Source: Flavobacterium sp. MK4S-17
GTDB lineage: Bacteria > Bacteroidota > Bacteroidia > Flavobacteriales > Flavobacteriaceae
Length of the DNA: 64,000 nt
Assembly (NCBI RefSeq): GCF_009848495.1
Contig: NZ_WWEP01000013.1
Location: forward strand, 1 to 64,000
Reading direction: 5' to 3'
A model generated the notes under the pieces. That model made no database searches, had not been told where the DNA came from, and saw nothing but the letters and a program-made list of their open reading frames with translations. Each line of letters begins with the position of its first letter. Within the stretch, counting starts at the first letter, position 1. Position numbers and translations under genes: made by a program. This document shows, one piece after another, positions 2,878-36,001 of the stretch.

Positions 2878-3786
2878 TTAGAATTCCAAATATAAGGCAA
2901 TTATTTTTACTTTTTCAACAGGAAAATCATTAATTTTTAACAATTCCTCAATATTTGGAATTTTACCATACATACTGCGTTGTGTAATGATGGCTTTGGC
3001 AAGACTTTTATTAAAATAGGGAAAATAAGCCAACTGGTTTAATGATGCCGAATTGATATTGAGTTTTGTTACCTGTGGGGCATCGCCTACTTTAAATGTT
3101 TTTTTCAGCCCGGCAACTGCCTCGGGTGATAATTTTTCAAAATCATCCATCTGCTCCATACTTACATAAGCCCCCAGTTGGGAGCGCCTGCGCAGTATCA
3201 TTTTGGCAAAATAAGGCCCGATGCCAAAAACCTTATCCAAATCTTCTTCCGTCGCCTGGTTGATATCTAATACAGGTAAAGCTTTTTCTTTTGCTTTATT
3301 ACTTTGTTTTGTGTAGTATCCGGGCTTTTCTTTTTGGGAAATACCATTGCGCTTTTTATTTACTACCCAGTCGGGAAATTTAAAGTAGGGAGATATAGTT
3401 TGCAAAAGGCTGTCAGAAACTTTTGTTACAAGCTGGAACTCCTGCGCTGAGTTTACATACTTACCCGTTTCCCTGAACTTATGCAGCCTGCCTATTTCAG
3501 CCACCGACATACCCAGTGTATAACCCTTGTAATCTGTAATAAAATTAGGATTAAACGGATAGATAACGGTTTTTTTCACGTTATACCTTGCCTTTAATGC
3601 ATCGATTTCCGTTTGCAGAGACAGCCACTCCTTCTCCTCGGCTGACTGCTTTCTTTTGCTTATAATTGTAGAGGAACTGTAAACCAGGTAGCCGGCCTGA
3701 ATGGTTATAATCAACAGGAAAAGTGCAAGTATGCCTTTTCGCTGTCCTTTATTAAATTTAAGAAAAAACTGGAACGGCCCTTTCAT
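2878..3786 (-). CDS. Membrane-anchored helix-hairpin-helix (ComEA-like) protein
   Basis: A 302-residue protein with one transmembrane segment at about residues 19-38, a spacer, and two C-terminal helix-hairpin-helix repeats. The first begins LDINQATEEDLDKVFGIGPY (about 173-192); the second begins LNINSASLNQLAYFPYFNKS (about 243-262). HhH repeats of this spacing bind DNA backbone non-specifically, as in ComEA, but the anchor and long spacer differ from canonical ComEA, so a competence role is only an inference. The next gene downstream (3790) starts 3 bp past the other end of this ORF and is on the same strand. Confidence 0.8.
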   Translation of the reverse strand: MKGPFQFFLKFNKGQRKGILALFLLIITIQAGYLVYSSSTIISKRKQSAEEKEWLSLQTEIDALKARYNVKKTVIYPFNPNFITDYKGYTLGMSVAEIGRLHKFRETGKYVNSAQEFQLVTKVSDSLLQTISPYFKFPDWVVNKKRNGISQKEKPGYYTKQSNKAKEKALPVLDINQATEEDLDKVFGIGPYFAKMILRRRSQLGAYVSMEQMDDFEKLSPEAVAGLKKTFKVGDAPQVTKLNINSASLNQLAYFPYFNKSLAKAIITQRSMYGKIPNIEELLKINDFPVEKVKIIALYLEF

Positions 3787-3789
3787 TGG

Positions 3790-4011
3790 CTATAAGTCGA
3801 AAACCGAACTTCTTTTGGTGTAAATCATATCTTTTAACCTTAGCCAGAAAGCAAGGGTAAGGTAAACACCAAACCATAGCCCTACTGTAACAAAGGAAAT
3901 ATAGATAAAGAATAAACGCACATTGGTAGCCCGCATACCCAACCTGTCTGCCAGCCGGGAAGAAACCTCAAACCCATGCTTTTCAAAAAAATGCCTGATA
4001 TTTGTTACCAT
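3790..4011 (-). CDS. PspC-domain small membrane protein
   Basis: A 73-residue protein starting at the ATG giving MVTNIRHFFEKHGFEVSSRL. An in-frame upstream TTG (4059) would add 16 residues but has no family support. A cytoplasmic SSRLADRLGMR helix precedes two hydrophobic stretches (VRLFFIYISFVTVGLWFGVY) in PspC-like order, ending RSSVFDL as in other flavobacterial members. A role in membrane stress is inferred from the family only. It lies between DUF2851 and the HhH gene in one probable operon. Confidence 0.75.
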   Translation of the reverse strand: MVTNIRHFFEKHGFEVSSRLADRLGMRATNVRLFFIYISFVTVGLWFGVYLTLAFWLRLKDMIYTKRSSVFDL

Positions 4012-4069
4012 ACTAGCGTTTATATCTTCCAAAAGTACATTTTTAATTGTAAACGGCAATTTGCCACTA

Positions 4070-5338
4070 CTAACTTTTTAATAATTCAAGCCCTACCGCA
4101 CACTGCATACAGCGTTTACTATTACAATATTCATTTTTAAGCTGCAACAAAGCCTGGCTGTCATAAGCGGTTGCAACGGGTACTTTAAATTTCAGGAATT
4201 TTTCTATAATAGAATTTTTCTCGGCGGCAACCTGCTGCAATATTGCAATCAGCTCTTCACTGTTTTCTTTTCCGGTACTTTTTCTATAGGCAAAACGAAA
4301 CGGAATTACTGTATTTATAATAATCAGGTCAATAAAAGCAGAAGTAAGAGCTTTGGTTTTTTTAGGACTGTCATTATCAAAAGTATAATGCGTTTGCCAA
4401 TATGCCGAAACCTGTACTTTAAAAATAGTATGTATAGCTTTTACATCAACAGCATTAACAATCAATGAAAATAAATTTTGATACCGATGGTATAATTGAG
4501 CCAGTTGGGAAAGCCTTATTGTAGGGAAGTTATCAGGCCGATGCCTAAAAAATTCCGGTTTGGCTATATAAGCCCTTTCAAGGCTGTATTTATGGCATAA
4601 ATAATTATACCTCAATTTTAAATCTTTATAATAAACATCTTCATGTTCTCCATCCAGCATGCCTATCCTGCCGAGAAATAATGCTTCCAGATTTTCAGCT
4701 TCAAAACTTTCTTTCCTGATTATGTGAAAAGGTATAGAGCGCGCCATGGTATAAAATGCCTCACCGTTGGTATTTAAACCGAAGCTTCGGGCAAGAAAGC
4801 AAAAAAGTACCGCTTCCCAGTCATTAGCGGTTTCATTTGCAAGTTGCAGTACAGGCAATGCCTTACGTTCTAAACGCTCAAAAAATAACCTTTCTTTCCA
4901 GTTTTCAAATACAAAGCTGTTAAGTTTTTCGAGTTCGTTTTCGCAGTATATCCATGTTTTGGAAGAAGCGAGTGCATTATAATTTTGCAAGGCTGCTGAA
5001 TCTGTAATATTTTTTAATTCCAGTACAGGTATTTGGGTAGCATCTTTGCGAAGGACTTCTGTATCATGCTCCCACACCACATGAAGTATTACATTGTCAT
5101 AAGCACTGTCGTTTTCATGATTGTGCAGGTACCAGTCTGAAGATTTAATATGTATTTCAACATTCCCGGCCCATTCCTGCTTACCTATAACAATACGGGC
5201 ATTAAAAAAATCAGGCCCCGACTTTTGCAGGTACTGTCCGGCAGCCAAAATCTGTATGCTTTCACCCTGTACTGTATTAAGCCTTTGCTGGTTAAATTTT
5301 TTAAATTGCCAGATGTAATGTAAAAAATCTTCCTTCAT
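4070..5338 (-). CDS. DUF2851 family protein
   Basis: A 422-residue cytoplasmic protein of the Bacteroidetes-wide DUF2851 family; no function is established. The start was placed at ATG 5338 (MKEDFLHYIWQFKKF), which matches the family N-terminus and leaves an 11-bp gap to the exonuclease gene; the longer frame to 5398 would overlap that gene. The C-terminus has Cys-rich NEYCNSKRCMQCAVG, a possible metal-binding knuckle. Some family members were linked to nuclease-like folds, but nothing here proves that. Confidence 0.8.
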   Translation of the reverse strand: MKEDFLHYIWQFKKFNQQRLNTVQGESIQILAAGQYLQKSGPDFFNARIVIGKQEWAGNVEIHIKSSDWYLHNHENDSAYDNVILHVVWEHDTEVLRKDATQIPVLELKNITDSAALQNYNALASSKTWIYCENELEKLNSFVFENWKERLFFERLERKALPVLQLANETANDWEAVLFCFLARSFGLNTNGEAFYTMARSIPFHIIRKESFEAENLEALFLGRIGMLDGEHEDVYYKDLKLRYNYLCHKYSLERAYIAKPEFFRHRPDNFPTIRLSQLAQLYHRYQNLFSLIVNAVDVKAIHTIFKVQVSAYWQTHYTFDNDSPKKTKALTSAFIDLIIINTVIPFRFAYRKSTGKENSEELIAILQQVAAEKNSIIEKFLKFKVPVATAYDSQALLQLKNEYCNSKRCMQCAVGLELLKS

Positions 5339-5349
5339 TAAGTGATATA

Positions 5350-5862
5350 TTAAAATAATTTCACCTGGCCGTTGTGCAAAAGGTACAGCTTTGCACAAGC
5401 TCTTGCATCAGACAGTGCCTCATGGTGATTAAGTACTATACCATGCCTGTCGCTGCATGCTTTAAGGTTTGCCGGCTTATAGCCTTTAGCCCTGTATATA
5501 CGGCAGGTACATTCCCATCTATCCGCCAATTCCAGTTCGTCATAATACAGCCCGTAATAGCGCATTGTTTTTATAAGCACATTACGGTCAAAAGCTTCAT
5601 TATGCGCCACAACTGTCCTGCCAAAGAGCCTTTGCCTGATTTCAGGAAACAACACATCAAAAGTAGGCATCTCAATAGTTTCTACGGGCTTAATACCGTG
5701 AACCATCACATTCCTGTACCAGTATTCATTATCAGGCGGCTGGATAAGTGTATGGTATTCTTCGGTTATAACACCCTCTTCAACAGTAACAATACCCACA
5801 GCACATGCACTATGTGCGTAACCTGTTGCCGTTTCAAAATCTATTGCCGTAAATGATGCCAT
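5350..5862 (-). CDS. DEDDh 3'-5' exonuclease (DnaQ-like)
   Basis: A 170-residue RNase T/DnaQ exonuclease domain with nothing attached. Exo I is TAIDFETATG (D8, E10), Exo II is VVAHNEAFDRNVL, and Exo III is HHEALSDARACAKLY, which supplies the His and last Asp of the DEDDh class. It would trim 3' ends of DNA or RNA using two metal ions. Stand-alone proteins of this kind are commonly annotated as DNA polymerase III epsilon-like; the replicative subunit cannot be told from a repair exonuclease. Confidence 0.85.
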   Translation of the reverse strand: MASFTAIDFETATGYAHSACAVGIVTVEEGVITEEYHTLIQPPDNEYWYRNVMVHGIKPVETIEMPTFDVLFPEIRQRLFGRTVVAHNEAFDRNVLIKTMRYYGLYYDELELADRWECTCRIYRAKGYKPANLKACSDRHGIVLNHHEALSDARACAKLYLLHNGQVKLF

Positions 5863-28379: not shown

Positions 28380-28431
28380 GTTAATCAATAGTTAATTGGC
28401 TTATTCTTCCCTTCTAAAAATGGTAATTTTA
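28380..28431 (+). promoter_or_regulatory. Phased GTTAAT repeats plus TAATTTTA box (stress-island promoter 1)
   Basis: GTTAAT at 28380-28385 and again at 28391-28396 (11-bp period). Exactly 27 bp follow, then TAATTTTA (28424-28431), 21 bp upstream of the start of the 28453 gene. The same design occurs at three more promoters in the island, as direct-repeat sites for an OmpR/PhoB-type activator would. Confidence 0.65.
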
Positions 28432-28452
28432 AAAGAATTTAAAAGCTGAAAA

Positions 28453-28728
28453 ATGAAAAATACTTCAACATTTAAAACTGCTGTAACGCTAATTGCTTTA
28501 ATGCCATTGTTATATGCCTGTAATGAAGAATCTAAACAGGAAAAATGGGAACAGCGGGAAAAAGCAAAAGTAGGAAGGGTTTATAATCCTGATGTGCAGG
28601 GAATAGCACATGAAAACAGGGAAAACCAGTTTCCTGAAAGCAGGAATGACAACGAAAAAGGAGAAGGGCTTGAAACCGGCGCACCAAGCGATACTACTGC
28701 CCTTAAGGATAATAAACCTTTAAACTAA
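28453..28728 (+). CDS. Small hypothetical lipoprotein heading stress operon
   Basis: A 91-residue protein with lipobox LLYAC (C22 or so) after a short signal peptide. The mature part is charged and likely disordered (ESKQEKWEQREKAKVGRVYN, then an Asn/Glu-rich tail). No domain is recognised. It is the first gene of an operon with DUF892, SDR and a hydrophilic protein; gaps are 5, 24 and 32 bp. Confidence 0.65.
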   Translation: MKNTSTFKTAVTLIALMPLLYACNEESKQEKWEQREKAKVGRVYNPDVQGIAHENRENQFPESRNDNEKGEGLETGAPSDTTALKDNKPLN

Positions 28729-28733
28729 CCTCC

Positions 28734-29264
28734 ATGATTTTAAATATAGCCAAAGAAAATCATTATAAGGCACATGAGCTGAGGACGCTGTTTGAAAAAC
28801 AACTGAAAGAATTATACTGGGCCGAAAATGAAATGGCAGCGCACATGCCGGATATTATTGCCTGCATAACATCCAAAGACCTTGAGGCCATATTAAAAAA
28901 GTTATTTGCAGAAACAAGCCAGCATATGGTAAGGCTTGAAAAGATATTCGGTAAAATAGGTATAGCGGCAGAGGCGCAGCCTTATGAGGCTCTTAAATGC
29001 CTAATGGGTGAAACCAAGAGAACTATTGCCCAAACCAAAGGCGGTGTAGTGAGGGATGCTGCCCTTATAGCAGTACTACAAAAAATAAAGCATTATGAAA
29101 TAGCATGCTATGGCACGATGCGGGCTTATGCGCTGGCATTAAGGGAAGAAGATGTAGTTACACTGCTGGAAGCTACACTTGATGAAGAAAAAAGAGCCGA
29201 CACCCTGCTTTCGGCTATAGCAGAAGCCCATATAAATATTGAAGCTGCAGATAAAGAAATTTAA
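28734..29264 (+). CDS. YciE/DUF892 ferritin-like four-helix protein
   Basis: A 176-residue all-helical protein of the YciE-type DUF892 family: LRTLFEKQLKELYWAENEMA at the N-terminus, Glu/His-rich helices (AETSQHMVRLEKIFGKIG), and ALIAVLQKIKHYEIACYGTM in the third helix. The Glu and His residues could form a di-metal centre, as in ferritin-like proteins. E. coli YciE/YciF are stress-induced; the operon here has the same flavour. Biochemical activity is not established. Confidence 0.85.
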   Translation: MILNIAKENHYKAHELRTLFEKQLKELYWAENEMAAHMPDIIACITSKDLEAILKKLFAETSQHMVRLEKIFGKIGIAAEAQPYEALKCLMGETKRTIAQTKGGVVRDAALIAVLQKIKHYEIACYGTMRAYALALREEDVVTLLEATLDEEKRADTLLSAIAEAHINIEAADKEI

Positions 29265-29288
29265 TTAAACCCGAAAAGAAATAATACT

Positions 29289-30137
29289 ATGTCAAAACCA
29301 AATTCATTCCCCAGCCAGCAGCAAAGCCAGCCGGGAGACGAGCATAAAATGCACCCTGAACCGGAAATTATTCGTGCTGATTATAAAGGAAGCGAAAAGC
29401 TGAAAAATAAAAAGGCCCTGATAACCGGTGGAGACAGTGGCATAGGCCGCAGTGCTGCCGTACACTTTGCACGGGAAGGGGCTGATGTGGCTATTATATA
29501 TTTTGATGAGCATAAAGATGCTGAAGAAACTAAAAGCCTAATTGAAAAAGAAGGCCGCAAATGCGTGCTGATTGCCGGCGACCTTAAAGATGAGGATTTT
29601 TGTACTGATGCTGTTAAAAAAGCCACAGATACACTTGGGGGCCTGAACATCCTGGTAAATAATGCCGCAGTACAGTTCCCTAAAACAGAGTTTAAGGATA
29701 TAACCGGAAGCCAGGTAAGAAAAACTTTTGAAACCAATATACTTCCGTTTTTTTACATAACACGTGAGGCACTTAAACATTTATCGGAAGGAGACTGTAT
29801 AATTAATACTACTTCGGTAACGGCATACAGGGGAAGCGAACACCTTATTGACTACAGCAGTACAAAAGGTGCAATTGTTTCCTTTACCCGTTCTACATCT
29901 GCCATGCTGGCCGAAAAAAAGATTCGTGTTAACGGAATAGCACCTGGGCCTATATGGACGCCGCTTATACCTGCATCATTTGATGATGTTACCGAGTTTG
30001 GACAGGATGTACCTTTAAAGCGTGCAGGGCAGCCAAGCGAAGTAGGCCCTGCCTATGTTTTCCTCGCCAGCAGGGATGCCTCTTATATTACCGGGCAGAT
30101 ACTGCACGTAAACGGAGGTGAAATTGTAGGCGGATAA
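29289..30137 (+). CDS. Short-chain dehydrogenase (YghA / general stress protein 39-like)
   Basis: A 282-residue SDR with a 40-residue N-terminal extension (SFPSQQQSQPGDEHKMHPEP) seen in the YghA/GSP39 subgroup. The Rossmann motif is TGGDSGIGRSAAV (46-58), NNAAVQF follows, and the catalytic residues are S176, Y189 and K193 (YSSTKGAI). It is an NAD(P)-linked oxidoreductase acting on an unknown carbonyl compound. Orthologues are typical of osmotic and general stress regulons, matching the operon. Confidence 0.9.
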   Translation: MSKPNSFPSQQQSQPGDEHKMHPEPEIIRADYKGSEKLKNKKALITGGDSGIGRSAAVHFAREGADVAIIYFDEHKDAEETKSLIEKEGRKCVLIAGDLKDEDFCTDAVKKATDTLGGLNILVNNAAVQFPKTEFKDITGSQVRKTFETNILPFFYITREALKHLSEGDCIINTTSVTAYRGSEHLIDYSSTKGAIVSFTRSTSAMLAEKKIRVNGIAPGPIWTPLIPASFDDVTEFGQDVPLKRAGQPSEVGPAYVFLASRDASYITGQILHVNGGEIVGG

Positions 30138-30169
30138 TTATTTATTAATCACTAAAAACCAGAATTATT

Positions 30170-30406
30170 ATGGCAACGAACAATTTAAACGAGAACAGCA
30201 AAGGTAACAGCAAGCCTGTTAACCCTAATGAAGAAGAACTAAACCCCGATGAGCTGGCCACTTTCCCAAAACAGCAGAAAACTGAAAATCCTGACCTGGA
30301 GGAAGAAAGGCAAAGTCATCTTGTAAATACTAAAAAATCTCCTGCAAGGGATGGCCAGCGTATTACACGCACAGGCCCTAATCCCGACCAAGATGGGTTT
30401 ATGTAA
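30170..30406 (+). CDS. Small hydrophilic, probably disordered protein
   Basis: A 78-residue protein without Cys or Trp, rich in Asn, Glu, Pro and Lys (NENSKGNSKPVNPNEEELNP; NTKKSPARDGQRITRTGPNP). It has no signal peptide. Such hydrophilic stress proteins are common in this operon type; the function is unknown. It is the last gene before the terminator at 30408. Confidence 0.65.
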   Translation: MATNNLNENSKGNSKPVNPNEEELNPDELATFPKQQKTENPDLEEERQSHLVNTKKSPARDGQRITRTGPNPDQDGFM

Positions 30407-30407
30407 T

Positions 30408-30436
30408 AAAAAAGGCTGCTATATGCAGCCTTTTTT
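30408..30436. terminator. Bidirectional terminator of stress operon
   Basis: AAAAAAGGCTGC (30408-30419), loop TATAT, GCAGCCTTTTTT (30425-30436), between converging genes. Confidence 0.9.
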
Positions 30437-30459
30437 ATTCAGGTTAAAATAATTTTAAT

Positions 30460-30747
30460 TTAATACTTTGTGCCCTGAGTAGCCCTCCTGCTCATTTCAG
30501 GATTTTTTTCATTTGATGCCGGCTGCTCTTCCTCACGCCTTTGTATCTCTTTATCTGCTATTTTGTTATCACCAGTAGCTGCATCTTTTATTTCAGCCTC
30601 AGCTTCCGGTTCTTCTTTCAAAGGTTCAGGCTTTTGATAAGGCACATAATTTACCACTTTTGGGTCGGGCTGCTTAGGGTATGATTGTGCCGAAGCTAAT
30701 CCTGCTGTTGCCAAAAGTAATCCCAGAGTTAAAATTTTCTTTTTCAT
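30460..30747 (-). CDS. Small secreted charged protein A
   Basis: A 95-residue protein with signal peptide MKKKILTLGLLLATAGLASA and a Glu/Lys/Pro-rich, probably unstructured mature part (KPEPLKEEPEAEAEIKDAAT) ending RRATQGTKY. No domain is recognised. It is 36 bp downstream of a second protein of the same design, so the two are probably cotranscribed from the phased-repeat promoter at 31119-31159. Confidence 0.65.
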   Translation of the reverse strand: MKKKILTLGLLLATAGLASAQSYPKQPDPKVVNYVPYQKPEPLKEEPEAEAEIKDAATGDNKIADKEIQRREEEQPASNEKNPEMSRRATQGTKY

Positions 30748-30783
30748 AATGTTTGATTTTTGGAGTTACTATACAATTCTTCT

Positions 30784-31095
30784 TTAATTCCTTTTTTCTG
30801 TTTTCTTTCTTACAGTTCTCTTTTTTACAGTATCACCAACCCTGTCAGCATCCGGTGTACTTTTTAAATGTTTACGTGTACGCAACTGGCTTTTCCTCGG
30901 CTTTACTTTTGCATCCTCGGTTGTTTGCCTGTTAACTATGTCCCTTTTAAGTTTTGAGTTCTCCTTTGCCTTTTCCATAACAGCAGGAGTTGTGCTGGCA
31001 GGATTTTCCGGTTTTTCATTTACCTCAGGTTCAGTTTGTGCAGCGGCTATACCAAAAGCCAGCATAGCAGACAGTGTAAAAAATATCTTTTTCAT
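30784..31095 (-). CDS. Small secreted charged protein B
   Basis: A 103-residue protein: signal peptide MKKIFFTLSAMLAFGIAAAQ, acidic start (TEPEVNEKPEN) and a very basic C-terminal half (KVKPRKSQLRTRKHLKST, KKRTVRKKTEKRN). The signal peptide is almost identical to that of protein C at 36052, implying a small paralogous family. The function is unknown; a role in the periplasm or surface under stress is inferred from the promoter. Confidence 0.65.
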   Translation of the reverse strand: MKKIFFTLSAMLAFGIAAAQTEPEVNEKPENPASTTPAVMEKAKENSKLKRDIVNRQTTEDAKVKPRKSQLRTRKHLKSTPDADRVGDTVKKRTVRKKTEKRN

Positions 31096-31118
31096 AGCTC
31101 TTTTATTTTAATTGATAA

Positions 31119-31189
31119 TAAAGTTAGCCAATACATAAAATGCTATCAACCTGATTAACCAATGTTTAACCTAATTAACTTTCCTTAAC
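31119..31189 (-). promoter_or_regulatory. Phased GTTAAW repeats plus TAACTTTA box (stress-island promoter 2)
   Basis: On the minus strand GTTAAG, GTTAAT, GTTAAA, GTTAAT and a degenerate GTTGAT have their G at 31189, 31179, 31170, 31159 and 31150, so the period is 9-11 bp. From the last perfect GTTAAT (31159-31154) there are exactly 27 bp to TAACTTTA (31126-31119). The start codon of protein B lies 23 bp further on. The two distal copies fall inside the end of the 31175 gene. Confidence 0.65.
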
Positions 31190-32719
31190 AGTTACCTGTT
31201 CAAGTGGTTTTAACGCAGGGCCTTCAATTATACATCCATCAGTGTCAAAGCGGGAAGCATGGCATGGACAGTCCCATGTTTTTTCCGCTTTATTCCAATG
31301 CACTACGCAGCCCATGTGGGTGCAAATGGCAGAACAGGCTTTTACATTGCCGCTATCGTCATGAAAAACAGCTACTTTTTTTCCTTCAACATCAATTACT
31401 TTTCCTTCCCCAATAGGAATATCCCCTGCTTTGGTGTCGCTTATAAAAATATAATCACGAAGTATTTCGCCTGCATTGCTGATGTTTTCCTTTACAAAGT
31501 TTCCGGCAGCCTTCAGTACATTGTGCCTTGAGGCATCAAAGAGTTTTGTATATTTTGTTTCATTACCATTTACCAGGTCATTTATAAGCATTGCCGAAAC
31601 TACACCCCATACCAGTCCATCGGTGGAAAAGCCTGTTGCTATAAAAATATTAGAGCCTTTACTCTTCCGCCCTATGTACGGCAGCAGGTCGGCGGGTTTA
31701 TAGTTTTGCCCGCCCCAGCGGTTGGTTACCTCATCCACATCAAAACGTTCGGCAAGGAATTTCTCAAGGTTTTTTATATTTTCCTCATTATCTTCCTGTT
31801 GCCCTACCCTGTGGGGCTGCCCTACCGCCAGCAGGAAATTTGAGCCCTCATGTGTATAGGAACGTATGGAAAATCTTTCATTTTCATTATAGTATCCCCA
31901 AAAAATACCCTGCGGATAATTTCCCGATGCCAGTTTAACAGCTATACCATATTCCCTGTAAGTACCTAAAACAGAATGGAAGTCAAACAGGTTTCCCTTT
32001 GGTGTATGTGTTGCATGCACTACATATTTGGCATGTACATTCCCCCTATCGGTTTCCAGCCTTATACAGTCTTCGTCTTCCTCATCTATGGTAACAACAC
32101 GCGTGTTTTCGAGTATAATGCAATTATCTGATGCTATATGCTTAGCAAGCTGCTGTACATAGCGCAACGGATTGAACTGTGCCTGGTTTTTTATTTTTAC
32201 ACCATGCTGCACCTTAAAAGGCAATTCGCCTTTATCAACCTCTTCGGCATTTATCCCTGCATCCCGGGCTGCTTGTAATACCTTATCTATCCTTTCCTCG
32301 CTTTCGTCATTGGACGAGAAAAGATACCAGGGCTGCTTCTTGTAATCGCAGTCTATAGAGTAGCGGTTGATGTTGTTTTCAATAAGTGCCATTGCACTGC
32401 CCCTTGCTTCTACAACAGTTTTAAGGGTTTCCGTATCGTATTTGGACTGGATTCGGTCAAAACCTTCCTCAACAGCTATATACAGGTTCCCTGTACTATG
32501 CCCTGTACTGCCGCCGCCAACTTTAAGTGCCTCTATAACCGCTACCTTATAACCTGATTCCTTTAACAGTTGTGCTGTGGTTATACCGGTTATGCCTCCG
32601 CCAATAACGGCTACATCTACACTCAGGCTTTGTTCTTGGGAAGGAAAATCAGAACCTGCGGAAAAAGACCTCCAGATAGATTTTATTGTCTTGTTATTAT
32701 GCTGGTAATCATAGTCCAT
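31175..32719 (-). CDS. FAD-dependent oxidoreductase with C-terminal Rieske domain (YhfW-like)
   Basis: A 514-residue fusion. The N-terminal DadA-like FAD domain has the dinucleotide motif VAVIGGGITGITTAQLL (about 35-51) and GFSTDGLVWG near 370. The C-terminal Rieske [2Fe-2S] domain has both ligand boxes: C466-T-H468 (CTHMGC) and C484-P-C-H487. The fusion matches the B. subtilis YhfW type, of unknown substrate. It has no signal peptide. It is divergent from the KTSC/SemiSWEET genes; the phased-repeat array at 32771-32808 lies between. Confidence 0.9.
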   Translation of the reverse strand: MDYDYQHNNKTIKSIWRSFSAGSDFPSQEQSLSVDVAVIGGGITGITTAQLLKESGYKVAVIEALKVGGGSTGHSTGNLYIAVEEGFDRIQSKYDTETLKTVVEARGSAMALIENNINRYSIDCDYKKQPWYLFSSNDESEERIDKVLQAARDAGINAEEVDKGELPFKVQHGVKIKNQAQFNPLRYVQQLAKHIASDNCIILENTRVVTIDEEDEDCIRLETDRGNVHAKYVVHATHTPKGNLFDFHSVLGTYREYGIAVKLASGNYPQGIFWGYYNENERFSIRSYTHEGSNFLLAVGQPHRVGQQEDNEENIKNLEKFLAERFDVDEVTNRWGGQNYKPADLLPYIGRKSKGSNIFIATGFSTDGLVWGVVSAMLINDLVNGNETKYTKLFDASRHNVLKAAGNFVKENISNAGEILRDYIFISDTKAGDIPIGEGKVIDVEGKKVAVFHDDSGNVKACSAICTHMGCVVHWNKAEKTWDCPCHASRFDTDGCIIEGPALKPLEQVTVKES

Positions 32720-32770
32720 ATCATCAGTTTTTTAGTTAGTTGAAGGTAGGCACAATTGCAACACAGCCCT

Positions 32771-32843
32771 GTTAACCTCAAGTTAATCAGAGTTAACCAA
32801 GCGTTAATTTATAAAACAGTGTATAAAAGATAGATTAAATTTA
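32771..32843 (+). promoter_or_regulatory. Four phased GTTAAY repeats plus TAAATTTA box (stress-island promoter 3)
   Basis: GTTAAC 32771-32776, GTTAAT 32782-32787, GTTAAC 32792-32797 and GTTAAT 32803-32808, with spacings of 11, 10 and 11 bp. Exactly 27 bp follow, then TAAATTTA (32836-32843), 21 bp before the 32865 start. The array could also act on the divergent FAD/Rieske gene, whose own box would be the weaker TACCTTCA at 32741-32748. Confidence 0.7.
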
Positions 32844-32864
32844 TAATAGGATTACGGCTTAAAA

Positions 32865-33089
32865 ATGAAAAGGTATAAAAACACAGGCGGCAATTCGGGA
32901 GTAACAGCATACGAAACAGGGCATGATTATATAAAGGTAAGTTTTAATGATGATGCCACTTACCTGTACACCTACAAAAGCGCAGGAAAAGGCATAATAG
33001 AGCAAATGAAGATACTGGCGCAAAATGGTAAGGGGCTAAGCACTTACATAAGCCGGAAGGTGAAAGATAAATTTGAAAAAAAATACTGA
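32865..33089 (+). CDS. Small KTSC-like domain protein
   Basis: A 74-residue cytoplasmic protein. The order VTAYETGHDYIKVSFNDDATYLYTYKSAG, then a helix and ISRKVKDKFEKKY, resembles the KTSC domain: a beta-sheet with 'v.Y....L.v.F..g..Y.Y' followed by a short helix. KTSC domains occur alone or fused to enzymes and have no known function. The assignment is by eye. It precedes the SemiSWEET gene by 4 bp. Confidence 0.6.
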   Translation: MKRYKNTGGNSGVTAYETGHDYIKVSFNDDATYLYTYKSAGKGIIEQMKILAQNGKGLSTYISRKVKDKFEKKY

Positions 33090-33093
33090 GCAG

Positions 33094-33372
33094 ATGGATT
33101 ACATTCAGGTAATAGGTTTACTGGCCGCAATTTTTACAACAGGTGCTAATATACCCCAAACCATTAAGGTTATTAAAACACGCTCTACCAAAAGCCTTTC
33201 ATCTGTAACCTATGCACTGCTGTTTTTAGGAATGGCACTATGGGTAATTTACGGGGTTATAAAAAGTGATATACCAATTATACTTGCCAATGCTGTAGCT
33301 GGCAGCTTGTGTGGCATAATTCTTTTTATGAAGCTGCTGGCACTGTACAGGAAGAAACAGCAACAGCATTAA
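33094..33372 (+). CDS. SemiSWEET sugar transporter (PQ-loop, 3 TM)
   Basis: A 92-residue protein with three membrane helices and the PQ-loop motif GANIPQTIKVIKTRSTKSLS near 20-39. The start was set at 33094 (MDYIQVIGLLAAIFTTG), 4 bp after the KTSC-like stop, in place of an upstream start that would overlap it. SemiSWEETs form dimers that move small sugars down their gradient. The sugar is not predictable here. Confidence 0.88.
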   Translation: MDYIQVIGLLAAIFTTGANIPQTIKVIKTRSTKSLSSVTYALLFLGMALWVIYGVIKSDIPIILANAVAGSLCGIILFMKLLALYRKKQQQH

Positions 33373-33472
33373 CCAATATTGCAACAAAAGTTATTAATGC
33401 TAATTGAGTCAGTATTACAATTAGGATTGTGCGTTCTAAATAAAATTTATTATTTAACTAAATATAATTGCT

Positions 33473-33889
33473 ATGAAAGGTATAAAAATGATTAAACAGG
33501 GTTTTACAGTTGCCCTTTGTATTACAGGTATTAATTTAGTATCGTCATGCGACAGCTGCTCGCGCAATAAAAGCGATGCCAATGAAATGACTGAAGAGAA
33601 TTATGGCGGTAATACTGATACAACAACATTGCAGGAAGAATCCAGTACGTCTGGCTCAGGCAGTACAGGCTATCAAAACGGATCTAACAATAATAACAAT
33701 GATGAGCCTTACAGCGGTACGTCTTACGGCAGCACAAATGACCCTGTGGAAAACAGCAGCAGCAATGCCGTAAAGAAAAACGGCGAGCCTACAGACAGCG
33801 GCGGTACTTCTGGAACAGGAATGGGTACAGGAACAGGCAGCACAGGAAACAACTCACGTGTAAGCAAAAAAGAAGACCAATATAATTAG
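33473..33889 (+). CDS. Low-complexity Ser/Gly/Thr/Asn-rich lipoprotein
   Basis: A 138-residue protein with a signal peptide and likely lipobox NLVSSC followed by DSCSRNK. The mature part is low complexity: acidic, then Ser/Gly/Asn repeats such as GYQNGSNNNNNDEPYSGTS and GTSGTGMGTGTGSTGNNS. It resembles glycan-like linkers or disordered surface proteins. No function is recognised. A second Met (residue 6) could be the start. Confidence 0.6.
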   Translation: MKGIKMIKQGFTVALCITGINLVSSCDSCSRNKSDANEMTEENYGGNTDTTTLQEESSTSGSGSTGYQNGSNNNNNDEPYSGTSYGSTNDPVENSSSNAVKKNGEPTDSGGTSGTGMGTGTGSTGNNSRVSKKEDQYN

Positions 33890-33916
33890 CCGACTAAAAT
33901 AGTAAACTTTAAAGTT

Positions 33917-34123
33917 ATGATTACAGATAACAACGTACAGCAAGGCAACAGGGGCGGAGAGGAATATGGCGAAGGCAATTTCCATAAAAGCTCAAGGAAC
34001 CAGGATAGCCAAAGGCACGAAGCAACTCAGGAAGAAGAAAAACATAAACAAACTCAGGAAGAAGAGAAATTTAGCCCTGGCGAAGATGAGGAGTATGATG
34101 CAGAGGATTTTGCCACAGATTAA
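33917..34123 (+). CDS. Small Glu/Gln-rich hydrophilic protein
   Basis: A 68-residue protein with no signal peptide and no hydrophobic core. It contains two near-identical units (ATQEEEKHK and QTQEEEKFS) and an acidic tail (GEDEEYDAEDFATD). It looks intrinsically disordered and stress-protein-like, as does the 30170 product. Function is unknown. Confidence 0.55.
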   Translation: MITDNNVQQGNRGGEEYGEGNFHKSSRNQDSQRHEATQEEEKHKQTQEEEKFSPGEDEEYDAEDFATD

Positions 34124-34160
34124 GTTACGCTATTGATTGTTTAACCAAAACTTGAAAAAC

Positions 34161-34838
34161 ATGTTTTCATTATCATGGACAGAATTATCATTACGGCTTG
34201 TTTTAGCTGCTGTTTTTGGCGCTGCCATTGGTATTGAGCGTGAACGCAAGGACTGGGCTGCCGGAATGCGCACACATATGCTGGTGTGCGTAGGCTCCTG
34301 CCTTATGATGATGGTATCTTCATTTGGCTTTGGGGATACAATGGGCAGGGAAAATGTGGAGTTAGACCCTTCAAGGGTAGCAGCCCAGATTATCAGCGGT
34401 ATAGGTTTTATAGGTGCCGGCACAATACTATTTTTAAAGCCTACAACAGTTTTAGGCTTAACAACGGCTTCAGGATTATGGACGGTAGCAGGAATAGGTA
34501 TGGCAACAGGCGGCGGTATGTATTATGCAGCCATAGCCACCACAATACTGGCTATAATTATATTATGGGGGATGCAGCCCATACAAAAGAAGTTTTCACC
34601 AAAGTTTCAAAACAAATCATTAGTTATCAGTATAAAACCCGATACCAGCCCGCAGTTAATCATTGAACGTTTTTTTGAAGATAAACATTTGGATTTTGCC
34701 AATTTTTCAATTAACCGGACTGCAGAAGAAACTATTATAGAAATGAAAATTGAAAAAGCGGGCAATGCAACTTTAAAGCAAATGGCACAAAAACTGCATG
34801 AAGACCCGTCAGTTAAAAAAATATCATGGAGCAATTAA
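34161..34838 (+). CDS. MgtC/SapB family membrane protein
   Basis: A 225-residue protein: MFSLSWTELSLRLVLAAVFG, the MgtC signature GAAIGIERERKDWAAGMRTH, several membrane helices (SGIGFIGAGTILFLKP; TTASGLWTVAGIGMATGGGM) and a C-terminal cytoplasmic ACT-like domain (about 155-225). MgtC proteins act in adaptation to low Mg2+ and acid stress, by limiting F1Fo ATPase in some bacteria. An in-frame ATG at 34137 would add eight residues. The VOC gene begins 2 bp after the stop. Confidence 0.9.
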   Translation: MFSLSWTELSLRLVLAAVFGAAIGIERERKDWAAGMRTHMLVCVGSCLMMMVSSFGFGDTMGRENVELDPSRVAAQIISGIGFIGAGTILFLKPTTVLGLTTASGLWTVAGIGMATGGGMYYAAIATTILAIIILWGMQPIQKKFSPKFQNKSLVISIKPDTSPQLIIERFFEDKHLDFANFSINRTAEETIIEMKIEKAGNATLKQMAQKLHEDPSVKKISWSN

Positions 34839-34840
34839 AC

Positions 34841-35206
34841 ATGAAACACCTACATTCCATATCACATATTGAAATACCTGCACCCGATTTTACCTCGGCA
34901 ATAGAATTTTATAAAGCTGTATTCAACTGGGGCATAGAACTGGTAACGGTAGGGCATTATGCCTTTTTTACCATAGGCAACACCGGGGCAGGCGGTGCAT
35001 TTAATTCGGCTTTAATGCCTGCGCCTGAAGGTACGGGGCTGCAGGTAATGATTTATGTTGACAGCATTGATGAAACTGTTAAAAGCATTGAAGCTAACGG
35101 TGGTAAAATAATTAAAGCCCGCACGGAAATTCCCGGCGGGCATGGTTTTTATGCTGTATTTACAGATACTAACAGCAATTATATGCAGATACATTCTATG
35201 CAGTAA
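34841..35206 (+). CDS. VOC/glyoxalase-fold protein
   Basis: A 121-residue protein with the paired beta-alpha-beta-beta-beta modules of the vicinal oxygen chelate fold: HLHSISHIEIPAPDFTSAIEF at the start and VMIYVDSIDETVKSIEANGG in the second module. It resembles short 'VOC family' proteins of unknown substrate (AAQ-type bleomycin/glyoxalase). It follows mgtC by 2 bp and is probably cotranscribed. The 34826 upstream codon would overlap mgtC and was not used. Confidence 0.85.
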   Translation: MKHLHSISHIEIPAPDFTSAIEFYKAVFNWGIELVTVGHYAFFTIGNTGAGGAFNSALMPAPEGTGLQVMIYVDSIDETVKSIEANGGKIIKARTEIPGGHGFYAVFTDTNSNYMQIHSMQ

Positions 35207-35210
35207 ATAG

Positions 35211-35927
35211 TTACGTAAATATTTTTACTGTTTCCTGGCTGATTTTTTTTGGTGTTCCGGTTTCCATAAAACGTTTAAATCCTAAAACATCTTTTCGAAC
35301 CATTTTTTCGAACAGTGGGTTAAGCAGTGCTGCTACCTCCTCGCCTGCCAGCCCAAGTGGTGCATGATAGGAAAATACTATATGCACCAGTGTGCCCAGT
35401 TCTCCCGCATCTTTAAACTCTACTTTACCTACATTTTTTACAGTGGAGCCCGAAACCGACCTCCAGCTAATATACCTGTGGGGTTCATCGCGCACAACTT
35501 CTGCTTTCCATTTTACTTTTCCCACACCGCCAGGCAAAGTAGCCTTCCACTCAGAAAATTCCTCGCTGATTATAGTAACCTCATCAAGATGCTCCATAAA
35601 CAAAGGCAGGTTTTGCAGGTTTCGCCATGAGTCATAAACATCCTCGCGCCTGCGGTTAATAATCATTCTTGCATGAATATTAATGTTAGAACCCTTAGGC
35701 ATTACAGCCCTACGCCTGTTTAAAAACTTTTCCCCTGCCTCGCTTGCAGGGCAATATCCGCTTACCCCCCTGAAAATCATAAATCCTGCGGCTGCAATTT
35801 CGGCTACGCTTCTTTTATACTTCAGGGAATCGTATAGCAGGTAAAATCCGCCCAGGGTTGAAATAACCCTTTCAATATCGTTTATATTTCTTTTCAGCTT
35901 TGGTAAATTAATGTTCCTGGATTCCAT
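35211..35927 (-). CDS. DUF2892 membrane domain fused to SRPBCC lipid-binding domain
   Basis: A 238-residue fusion. Residues about 8-70 match the two-helix YgaP-like DUF2892 domain (LKRNINDIERVISTLGGFYL, AAGFMIFRGVSGYCP). Residues about 85-225 are a SRPBCC/polyketide cyclase fold (INRRREDVYDSWRNLQNLPL, MEHLDEVTIISEEFSEWKAT). Comparable proteins in Bacteroidetes are called 'SRPBCC family'. It may bind a hydrophobic ligand at the membrane; this is inference. It is transcribed from the phased-repeat promoter at 35950-36001. Confidence 0.82.
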   Translation of the reverse strand: MESRNINLPKLKRNINDIERVISTLGGFYLLYDSLKYKRSVAEIAAAGFMIFRGVSGYCPASEAGEKFLNRRRAVMPKGSNINIHARMIINRRREDVYDSWRNLQNLPLFMEHLDEVTIISEEFSEWKATLPGGVGKVKWKAEVVRDEPHRYISWRSVSGSTVKNVGKVEFKDAGELGTLVHIVFSYHAPLGLAGEEVAALLNPLFEKMVRKDVLGFKRFMETGTPKKISQETVKIFT

Positions 35928-35949
35928 AAATAGTTGGTAATTTTCTGTT

Positions 35950-36001
35950 TAAAAATAACGAATAAACAAGAAAAACCTTTATGCTTTAACACTACATTAG
36001 C
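35950..36001 (-). promoter_or_regulatory. Phased GCTAAT/GTTAAA repeats plus TATTTTTA box (stress-island promoter 4)
   Basis: On the minus strand GCTAAT (36001-35996) and GTTAAA (35990-35985) are 11 bp apart. Exactly 27 bp follow, then TATTTTTA (35957-35950), 22 bp before the start of the SRPBCC gene. This is the same design as promoters 1-3, found independently of them. Confidence 0.6.

Follow-up and report, generated by a model that had tools for sequence, protein, structure and literature searches.

What reads the GTTAAY repeats that precede four genes of a stress-type island in Flavobacterium sp. MK4S-17? The island lies in a window of 64,000 nucleotides (positions 1-64000 of contig NZ_WWEP01000013.1, assembly GCF_009848495.1, forward strand), and a preliminary description of this DNA had ascribed the repeats, which recur at about one helical turn, to a regulator of the OmpR/PhoB family acting on a stress island. 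Comparative evidence supports this view and narrows it. With a probability of about 0.78, we read the repeats as the operator of an RprY-like response regulator with the OmpR/PhoB fold, likeliest that of the kinase-regulator operon at C29:83245-85513, which would activate weak sigma-A promoters. The observations behind this reading are the motif, its spacing, its conservation, its tie to RprY-like operons and a recognition helix common to the proteins concerned.

The sites were read directly from the letters and also scanned for. Both approaches agreed that the last repeat copy lies exactly 27 bp before a TAnnTTTA box in all four promoters, as had been described. The repeats point toward the gene that follows on both strands, four of four boxes end in A, and the distance from box to start codon, previously given as 21-23 bp, measures 21, 23, 21 and 22 bp at sites 1-4. 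The term tandem applies to sites 1-3, which are true pairs or arrays; it is weak at site 4, because this site has one GTTAA copy and a degenerate partner. A similar degenerate pair is retained in the relative G890.

We then compared these counts with shuffled sequence. The window contains four pairs that match at 10 or more of 12 positions and precede TA..TTTA with a gap of 27 bp; 200 dinucleotide shuffles contained 0.035 on average and 1 at most, which bears out the claim that the arrangement is unlikely by chance. When the gap was freed to any value from 10 to 45 bp, 200 dinucleotide shuffles of the window never held more than two matches at one gap. Single GTTAAY-27-TANNTTTA elements with up to one mismatch were found 8 times (3.0 expected). 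Loose GTTAAY pairs with up to two mismatches hardly exceed expectation in the window (53, with 40 expected), so that pair counts alone are no evidence and the gap is. Across the whole MK4S-17 genome, GTTAAN5-6GTTAA occurs 54 times, compared with 20 for a reversed-pattern control.

The layout is conserved in relatives. Homologues of the KTSC-like 74-aa protein (presumably KTSC-like; Pfam gave no match) are present in 5 of 61 genus genomes, MK4S-17 included, the closest being that of G078 with 66% identity. A 12-kb contig of G078, which was reached by protein homology, repeats the order of the island, and three of its three promoters, those of the lipoprotein-DUF892-SDR genes, of a secreted 105-aa protein and of the KTSC-like gene, keep the pair and TAnnTTTA at a distance of 27 bp, their spacers being unrelated. 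Orthologous promoters thus preserve the 27-bp layout while their spacers have diverged. Two of these three promoters are also among the matches listed in a search with the gap left free between 12 and 42 bp. Since G873, G800 and G890 were themselves retrieved with the motif at a gap of 26-27 bp, their matches are not independent with respect to the gap; independent evidence for 27 bp comes from G078 and from the SRPBCC promoters of G890 and G873, the latter missed by the scan and seen by eye. Counted by gene, with MK4S-17 included, the site precedes the lipoprotein/DUF892 operon in 4/4 genomes, the KTSC-like gene in 4/4, the SRPBCC gene in 3/3 if the half-site of G873 counts, and the secreted 103-aa gene in 2/3; for this count a 20-aa match in G890 was excluded as an orthologue, and the G800 stretches contain the small acidic gene alone. 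Pairs with TA..TTTA at gaps of 15-40 bp in loci L112 and L205-L209 fall at 27 bp (12 rows, 11 distinct places), and the only other class, at 37-38 bp (5 rows), was read as the next repeat upstream. Fifteen promoters picked at a gap of 26-28 bp all align at 27 bp, with the consensus GTTAATCAAGC-GTTAAT-N27-TAACTTTATAA and no conserved TTG or -33 element in the spacer.

The same promoter layout led to a candidate regulator. A search for pair, gap and box in 60 genomes (MK4S-17 and 59 relatives) gave matches in 42, and one promoter turned up repeatedly, that of a histidine kinase gene of ~498 aa. Among the matches listed, 29 loci from relatives with a gap of 26-28 bp (L038-L066) were compared with the C29 kinase: 20 encode its orthologue (56-61% identical along almost the full length), two (L038 and L043) have a partial kinase match, three have HtrA and four have neither. 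In MK4S-17 the kinase, which has HisKA and HATPase_c domains in Pfam, is preceded by GTTAAT-N5-GTTAAT-27-TAATTTTG, and the response regulator gene lies directly behind it (kinase 3976-5514 and regulator 3246-3971 in locus L075). The regulator has Response_reg (5.6e-30) and Trans_reg_C (2.4e-16) domains, and its top NCBIfam model is RprY with 285.8 bits, followed by PhoB of Bacteroidota (168.2) and, lower, CpxR (115.1).

The MK4S-17 genome encodes six OmpR-type regulators, all outside the window, as the preliminary description had held for the regulator, and three of them are RprY-like (C29, 285.2 bits; C31, 244.3; C19, 212.5). A GTTAA pair stands ahead of all three RprY-like operons (C29:85555, C31:6353 and C19:130631). 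None of the 54 genome-wide pairs is near the other three regulators (C25:9895, C32:77220 and C29:168243): there is none on C25 or C32, and the closest on C29 is 37 kb from the regulator at C29:168243. Specificity for these regulators rests on this complete list of 54 pairs. A scan of up to 1500 bp around the DNA-binding domain found no pair for any of the six, RprY-like ones included, and is uninformative because the RprY-like operators sit further upstream, beyond the kinase gene. We also aligned 53 RprY-like proteins (39 survey proteins, with 13 others left out, three of MK4S-17 and 11 close RprY). Nearly all contain the recognition-helix segment RS[ML]DV[FY], with RTLDVY in L156, and the segment differs in the three non-RprY-like OmpR-type regulators of MK4S-17. 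The helix is common to RprY proteins above the curated cut-off (ARSMDVYI in L170-L177) and the C29 regulator (SRSMDVYI).

The association extends across the phylum. A survey of 99 phylum genomes, MK4S-17 included, with model NF051850 at E <= 1e-60 and up to 25 candidates scored per genome, found at least 55 RprY-like regulators in 33 genomes. The upstream DNA of all 55 was examined, and kinases were told by length, position and sequence signatures, with Pfam run on two: a kinase lies directly upstream in 48 cases, another open reading frame (ORF) in 1 and none in 6. Forward GTTAA-N5/6-GTTAA occurs within 300 bp of the kinase start in 38/48 operons and the reverse orientation in 2/48, whilst 29 permuted words average 0.31 of 49 operons. 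The spacing of GTTAA copies in 49 operons peaks at 10 (29 cases) and 11 bp (26), then at 20-21 bp. Past the last hexamer, the 38 operons have a TA..TTT box at a gap of 26 (12 operons), 27 (12) or 28 bp (1); other gaps are single or double cases at 5, 15, 17, 24, 36 and 38 bp, and some operons are without a box. In an earlier subset of 28 operons with the pair, 16 of 20 boxes at a gap of 26-28 bp end in G. The 27-bp rule, first described for the stress promoters, is not peculiar to them, the same layout being found in RprX/RprY-like operons with a box mostly ending in G. We further collected close RprY proteins at E <= 1e-105, obtaining 11 in 11 of 295 class genomes, 8 of them over the cut-off. 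The pair is present in 3/3 operons below the cut-off, and the two over-cut-off operons that have it show, as read by eye, a gap of 27 bp before TAATTTTG. As judged from these sequences, the operator appears to be common to at least some true RprY operons.

These counts bear on two other explanations of the repeats. A different direct-repeat regulator, of LytTR type or PhoB at Pho boxes, might bind them, the match to RprY-like operons being incidental; LytTR half-sites can read GTTAA, and the Pho boxes of Bacillus are TTAACA at 11-bp steps. We regard this as very unlikely. The pair occurs in 38 of the 48 operons and permuted words hardly ever; the three non-RprY-like OmpR-type regulators have no pair nearby, LytTR regulators not having been searched for; and no phosphate genes were recognised among the downstream proteins viewed by eye, with no search aimed at such genes. 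An alternative sigma factor that reads GTTAAY-27-TAnnTTTA as a two-part promoter would account for the constant spacing and for the deviation of the box from TAnnTTTG, yet it is scarcely credible. A gap of 27 bp far exceeds the known -35/-10 and -24/-12 spacings, there are between two and four repeats, and in the kinase operons the distance is 26, 27 or about a turn off (15, 36, 38). In addition, the F. psychrophilum sigma motifs in the available text of PMC9723704 do not include this element.

Which of the RprY-like proteins acts at the island is a separate question. The operator might be of RprY type and be bound there by the C31 or C19 paralogue, or by several regulators together, as GTTAA pairs stand at all three MK4S-17 operons and the proteins have a common recognition helix; the presence of three RprY-like regulators in the genome also speaks against singling out C29. 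We consider this a minor but real possibility. G078, in which the island is conserved, encodes one regulator of C29 type (284.6 bits), one of C31 type (242.4 bits) and none of the C19 score class, and the promoters of the genus that we take for C31-type (typed by the kinase N-terminus: L152, L154, L157, L222, L223 and L225) have a gap of 15 bp or no fitting box. The C29 type, with a gap of 27 bp like that of the island, is the best fit.

The kinase promoters themselves vary in geometry. The C19 operon (L076:4632-4755 = C19:130631-130754) has five GTTAATG/GTTAATA-type repeats in two groups, with a TATTTTTG box 36 bp past the last repeat, about one turn further than usual. In a third RprY-like kinase type (L157 = C31:6353-6392, L222 and L223), the distance from a GTTAAYGACTTGTTAAY pair to TAnnTTTG is just 15 bp, shorter than usual by about one turn. 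A further RprX-like kinase type (L218 and L219) has GTTAACGTNTGTTAAC 26 bp before the box; the kinase genes are oriented divergently from genes of similar-looking secreted proteins, which may reflect a pairing of sensor and partner.

Several findings weigh against an RprY-like regulator from C29 that activates sigma-A promoters. The C29 regulator, with 285.8 bits, is below the curated RprY cut-off (NF051850, 370 bits), which is why we name it RprY-like and not RprY, and the pair is present in 2/8 over-cut-off (Bacteroidales-type) RprY operons. It is absent from 10/48 kinase operons, from the 1 case with another ORF and from 6/6 regulator-first cases. The htrA promoter of MK4S-17 has no tandem site, only a single GTTAAC. 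No forward site precedes the box of the secreted 103-aa gene in G873, and 10 of the 11 KTSC-like homologues examined are without a site. Finally, a strict motif search (gap 26-27 bp) in 299 genus genomes, MK4S-17 included, found 25 places in 16 genomes compared with 19 for the reversed control.

Given 25 against 19, most lone matches in other genomes may be chance, and we used only recurrent or clustered ones. The signal of the strict search is a concentration of 13 of the 25 places in five genomes (MK4S-17, G078, G873, G800 and G890; the control has at most 2 per genome), together with the identity of the genes behind them. The scan of related genomes that had been called for thus showed matches clustering upstream of stress-type genes: 11 of the 13 places precede genes that we classed as such, namely KTSC-like (4), DUF892 (2), lipoprotein-DUF892 (2) and three others, which are a 56-aa gene with a LigD-type ligase gene behind it, the gene of a small acidic protein and that of a protein we take to be CinA-like. 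A site 26-27 bp before the box is also found upstream of an HtrA-type protease in nine genus genomes (L039, L051, L055, L183 and L210-L214), a count confined to htrA promoters that have the site; the identity was checked by Pfam in one of the nine. Since these genomes were found through the motif, the HtrA gap is not independent evidence.

How might such a site work? An RprX-like kinase would phosphorylate the RprY-like regulator, and the regulator protomers would then line up head to tail, each on its own GTTAAY half-site, with a period of 10-11 bp or one helical turn. The F. psychrophilum sigma-A box TAnnTTTG is described as spanning -12 to -5 (PMC9723704). If the window boxes are placed likewise, the last half-site would lie at about -45 to -40 and the previous one at about -56 to -51, and a pair of OmpR-type protomers would occupy roughly -56 to -34, up to the -33 region. 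The layout would therefore be that expected of an activator that contacts the polymerase: the downstream protomer, set against the -33 region, would bring in sigma-A RNA polymerase at a weak box, TAnnTTTA in place of TAnnTTTG. The same site ahead of the kinase-regulator operon would provide autoregulation. That the regulator activates and does not repress, and that it responds to stress, is our inference. The opposite sign, a repressor from which the island is released under stress, seems unlikely to us. In P. gingivalis, RprY is reported to repress chaperone genes (PMC3646045), which counts against activation, whereas the half-site positions would be those expected of an activator and RprY is also described as activating nqr in that species (PMC7002350).

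The features of the four promoters and of the genes behind them are listed in Table 1.

Table 1. Operators, boxes and genes of the island in the window, with the counterparts of each operator in relatives.
Feature	Position	Strand	Details	Counterparts
Operator 1	28380..28396	+	GTTAAT 28380 and GTTAAT 28391, step 11	G078 (L112:6137); before DUF892 at L205:10286 and L209:12111
-7-like box 1	28424..28431	+	TAATTTTA; 27 bp after last half-site, 21 bp before ATG 28453	
Putative operon behind operator 1	28453..30406	+	four ORFs	
Small lipoprotein gene	28453-28728	+	ORF list	
DUF892 protein gene	28734-29264	+	Pfam DUF892, 1.1e-35	
SDR dehydrogenase gene	29289-30137	+	Pfam adh_short_C2, 7.2e-57	
Small acidic protein gene	30170-30406	+	ORF list	
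Operator 2	31154..31189	-	array GTTAAG/GTTAAT/GTTAAA/GTTAAT, steps 10, 9, 11; last GTTAAT 31159-31154	G078 (L112:9181); not in G873
-7-like box 2	31126-31119	-	TAACTTTA; gap 27 bp from array, 23 bp before ATG 31095	
103-aa protein gene, probably secreted (N-terminus judged by eye)	30784..31095	-	ORF	
Operator 3	32771..32808	+	GTTAAC/GTTAAT/GTTAAC/GTTAAT at 32771, 32782, 32792, 32803; steps 11, 10, 11	G078, G873, G890
-7-like box 3	32836..32843	+	TAAATTTA; gap 27 bp, 21 bp before ATG 32865	
KTSC-like 74-aa gene and PQ-loop/MtN3-like gene	32865..33372	+	ORFs	
Operator 4, degenerate	36001..35985	-	GCTAAT 36001-35996, GTTAAA 35990-35985, step 11	G890 (L209:5946), degenerate pair, gap 27; G873, last half-site and 27-bp gap only
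-7-like box 4	35957-35950	-	TATTTTTA; gap 27 bp, 22 bp before ATG 35927	
SRPBCC (polyketide-cyclase-like) gene	35211..35927	-	Pfam	

The internal SDR gene has no site in front of it in 3/3 relatives inspected. The secreted 103-aa protein gave no family match in Pfam or NCBIfam, and the N-terminus of the SRPBCC protein has a weak YgaP-like membrane segment (24.0 bits, just below the cut-off of 25.3). An MgtC-family gene (34161-34838, Pfam 9.3e-39) also lies within the island and is retained in G873 and G890, there without a site of its own. A perfect site in G873 is followed by a 56-aa gene and a gene for a LigD-type ligase/primase (L206:6895-9099), which suggests that end-joining repair is part of the regulon in this genome. 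A gene for a 265-aa, probably secreted protein has a pair 26 bp before TATCTTTA in three genomes (L182, L188 and L191). The pair search with a free gap (12-42 bp) gave matches in 60 of 61 genus genomes, and two recurrent matches among those listed were not used further: one appears to be coding (GTTAATAAATTGTTAATAG...TTAGATTTG), and the other precedes a GTACTATG...ATAC element, the gap being 39 bp. In genus genomes, for example at G007:C24:42213 and G010:C1:1880380, a recurrent GTTAAT pair lies about 39 bp ahead of the box, and the stretch in between contains a conserved GTACTATGCGAAACAAGATACTGTCTTTTAG-like element; the pair at this distance is possibly the operator of another regulator.

In the texts available, our literature search found neither a GTTAA operator of RprY nor a regulon of this kind in flavobacteria, although Duran-Pinedo et al. 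(2007) may contain a motif. The operator grammar and the regulon appear to be new, as the preliminary description had suggested for the regulon; the regulator family is already known. More broadly, and with odds that we put slightly short of even, RprX/RprY-like systems may be a general or envelope stress switch of Bacteroidota that uses one promoter grammar across the phylum and is wired to autoregulation, HtrA and the island. The grammar would consist of GTTAAY repeats in steps of 10-11 bp, with a gap of 26-27 bp to TAnnTTTR. The wiring to autoregulation would then be very wide and that to HtrA present in a number of flavobacteria, and one subclade would have connected the switch to a desiccation/osmotic-type island (DUF892, SDR, KTSC-like and SRPBCC, with LigD repair genes in a relative). 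A sequence rule readable from Bacteroidota genomes renders the regulon predictable and testable, and the system is a candidate for a flavobacterial general or envelope stress response.

Among known systems, the Pho box of PhoB and the TTAACA repeats of Bacillus PhoP are head-to-tail, at one helical turn and next to the core promoter. The repeats of the window and of the kinase operons are likewise head-to-tail at 10-11 bp beside the core promoter, but differ in their GTTAAY half-site, in the gap of 26-27 bp to a Bacteroidota -7 box and in having up to four copies. The Cpx system of E. coli has an autoregulated OmpR-family regulator with the protease DegP/HtrA as a target. An OmpR-family regulator, a site at its own operon and HtrA as a target in nine relatives recall Cpx, without membership by sequence (CpxR model 115.1 bits, RprY 285.8). 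Flavobacterial sigma-A promoters, as described in PMC9723704, agree with the window promoters in the form of the box and, if the box is used, in its position; the window boxes differ in their last base, A and not G, and lack a conserved -33 element. The nearest regulator family by a wide margin is RprX/RprY of Bacteroides fragilis and Porphyromonas gingivalis, in which the kinase also lies beside the regulator. The system described here differs from it in a score below the curated cut-off, in an operator geometry found in 2/8 over-cut-off operons, and in its genes, since the RprY targets named in the available texts include none of those found here (DUF892, SDR, KTSC-like and SRPBCC in the island; HtrA in relatives). 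In B. fragilis, rprX/rprY is described as the one essential two-component regulator (PMC4072883), and P. gingivalis RprY is described as binding its own promoter and chaperone promoters (PMC3646045), with a regulon that concerns stress (PMC5706477).

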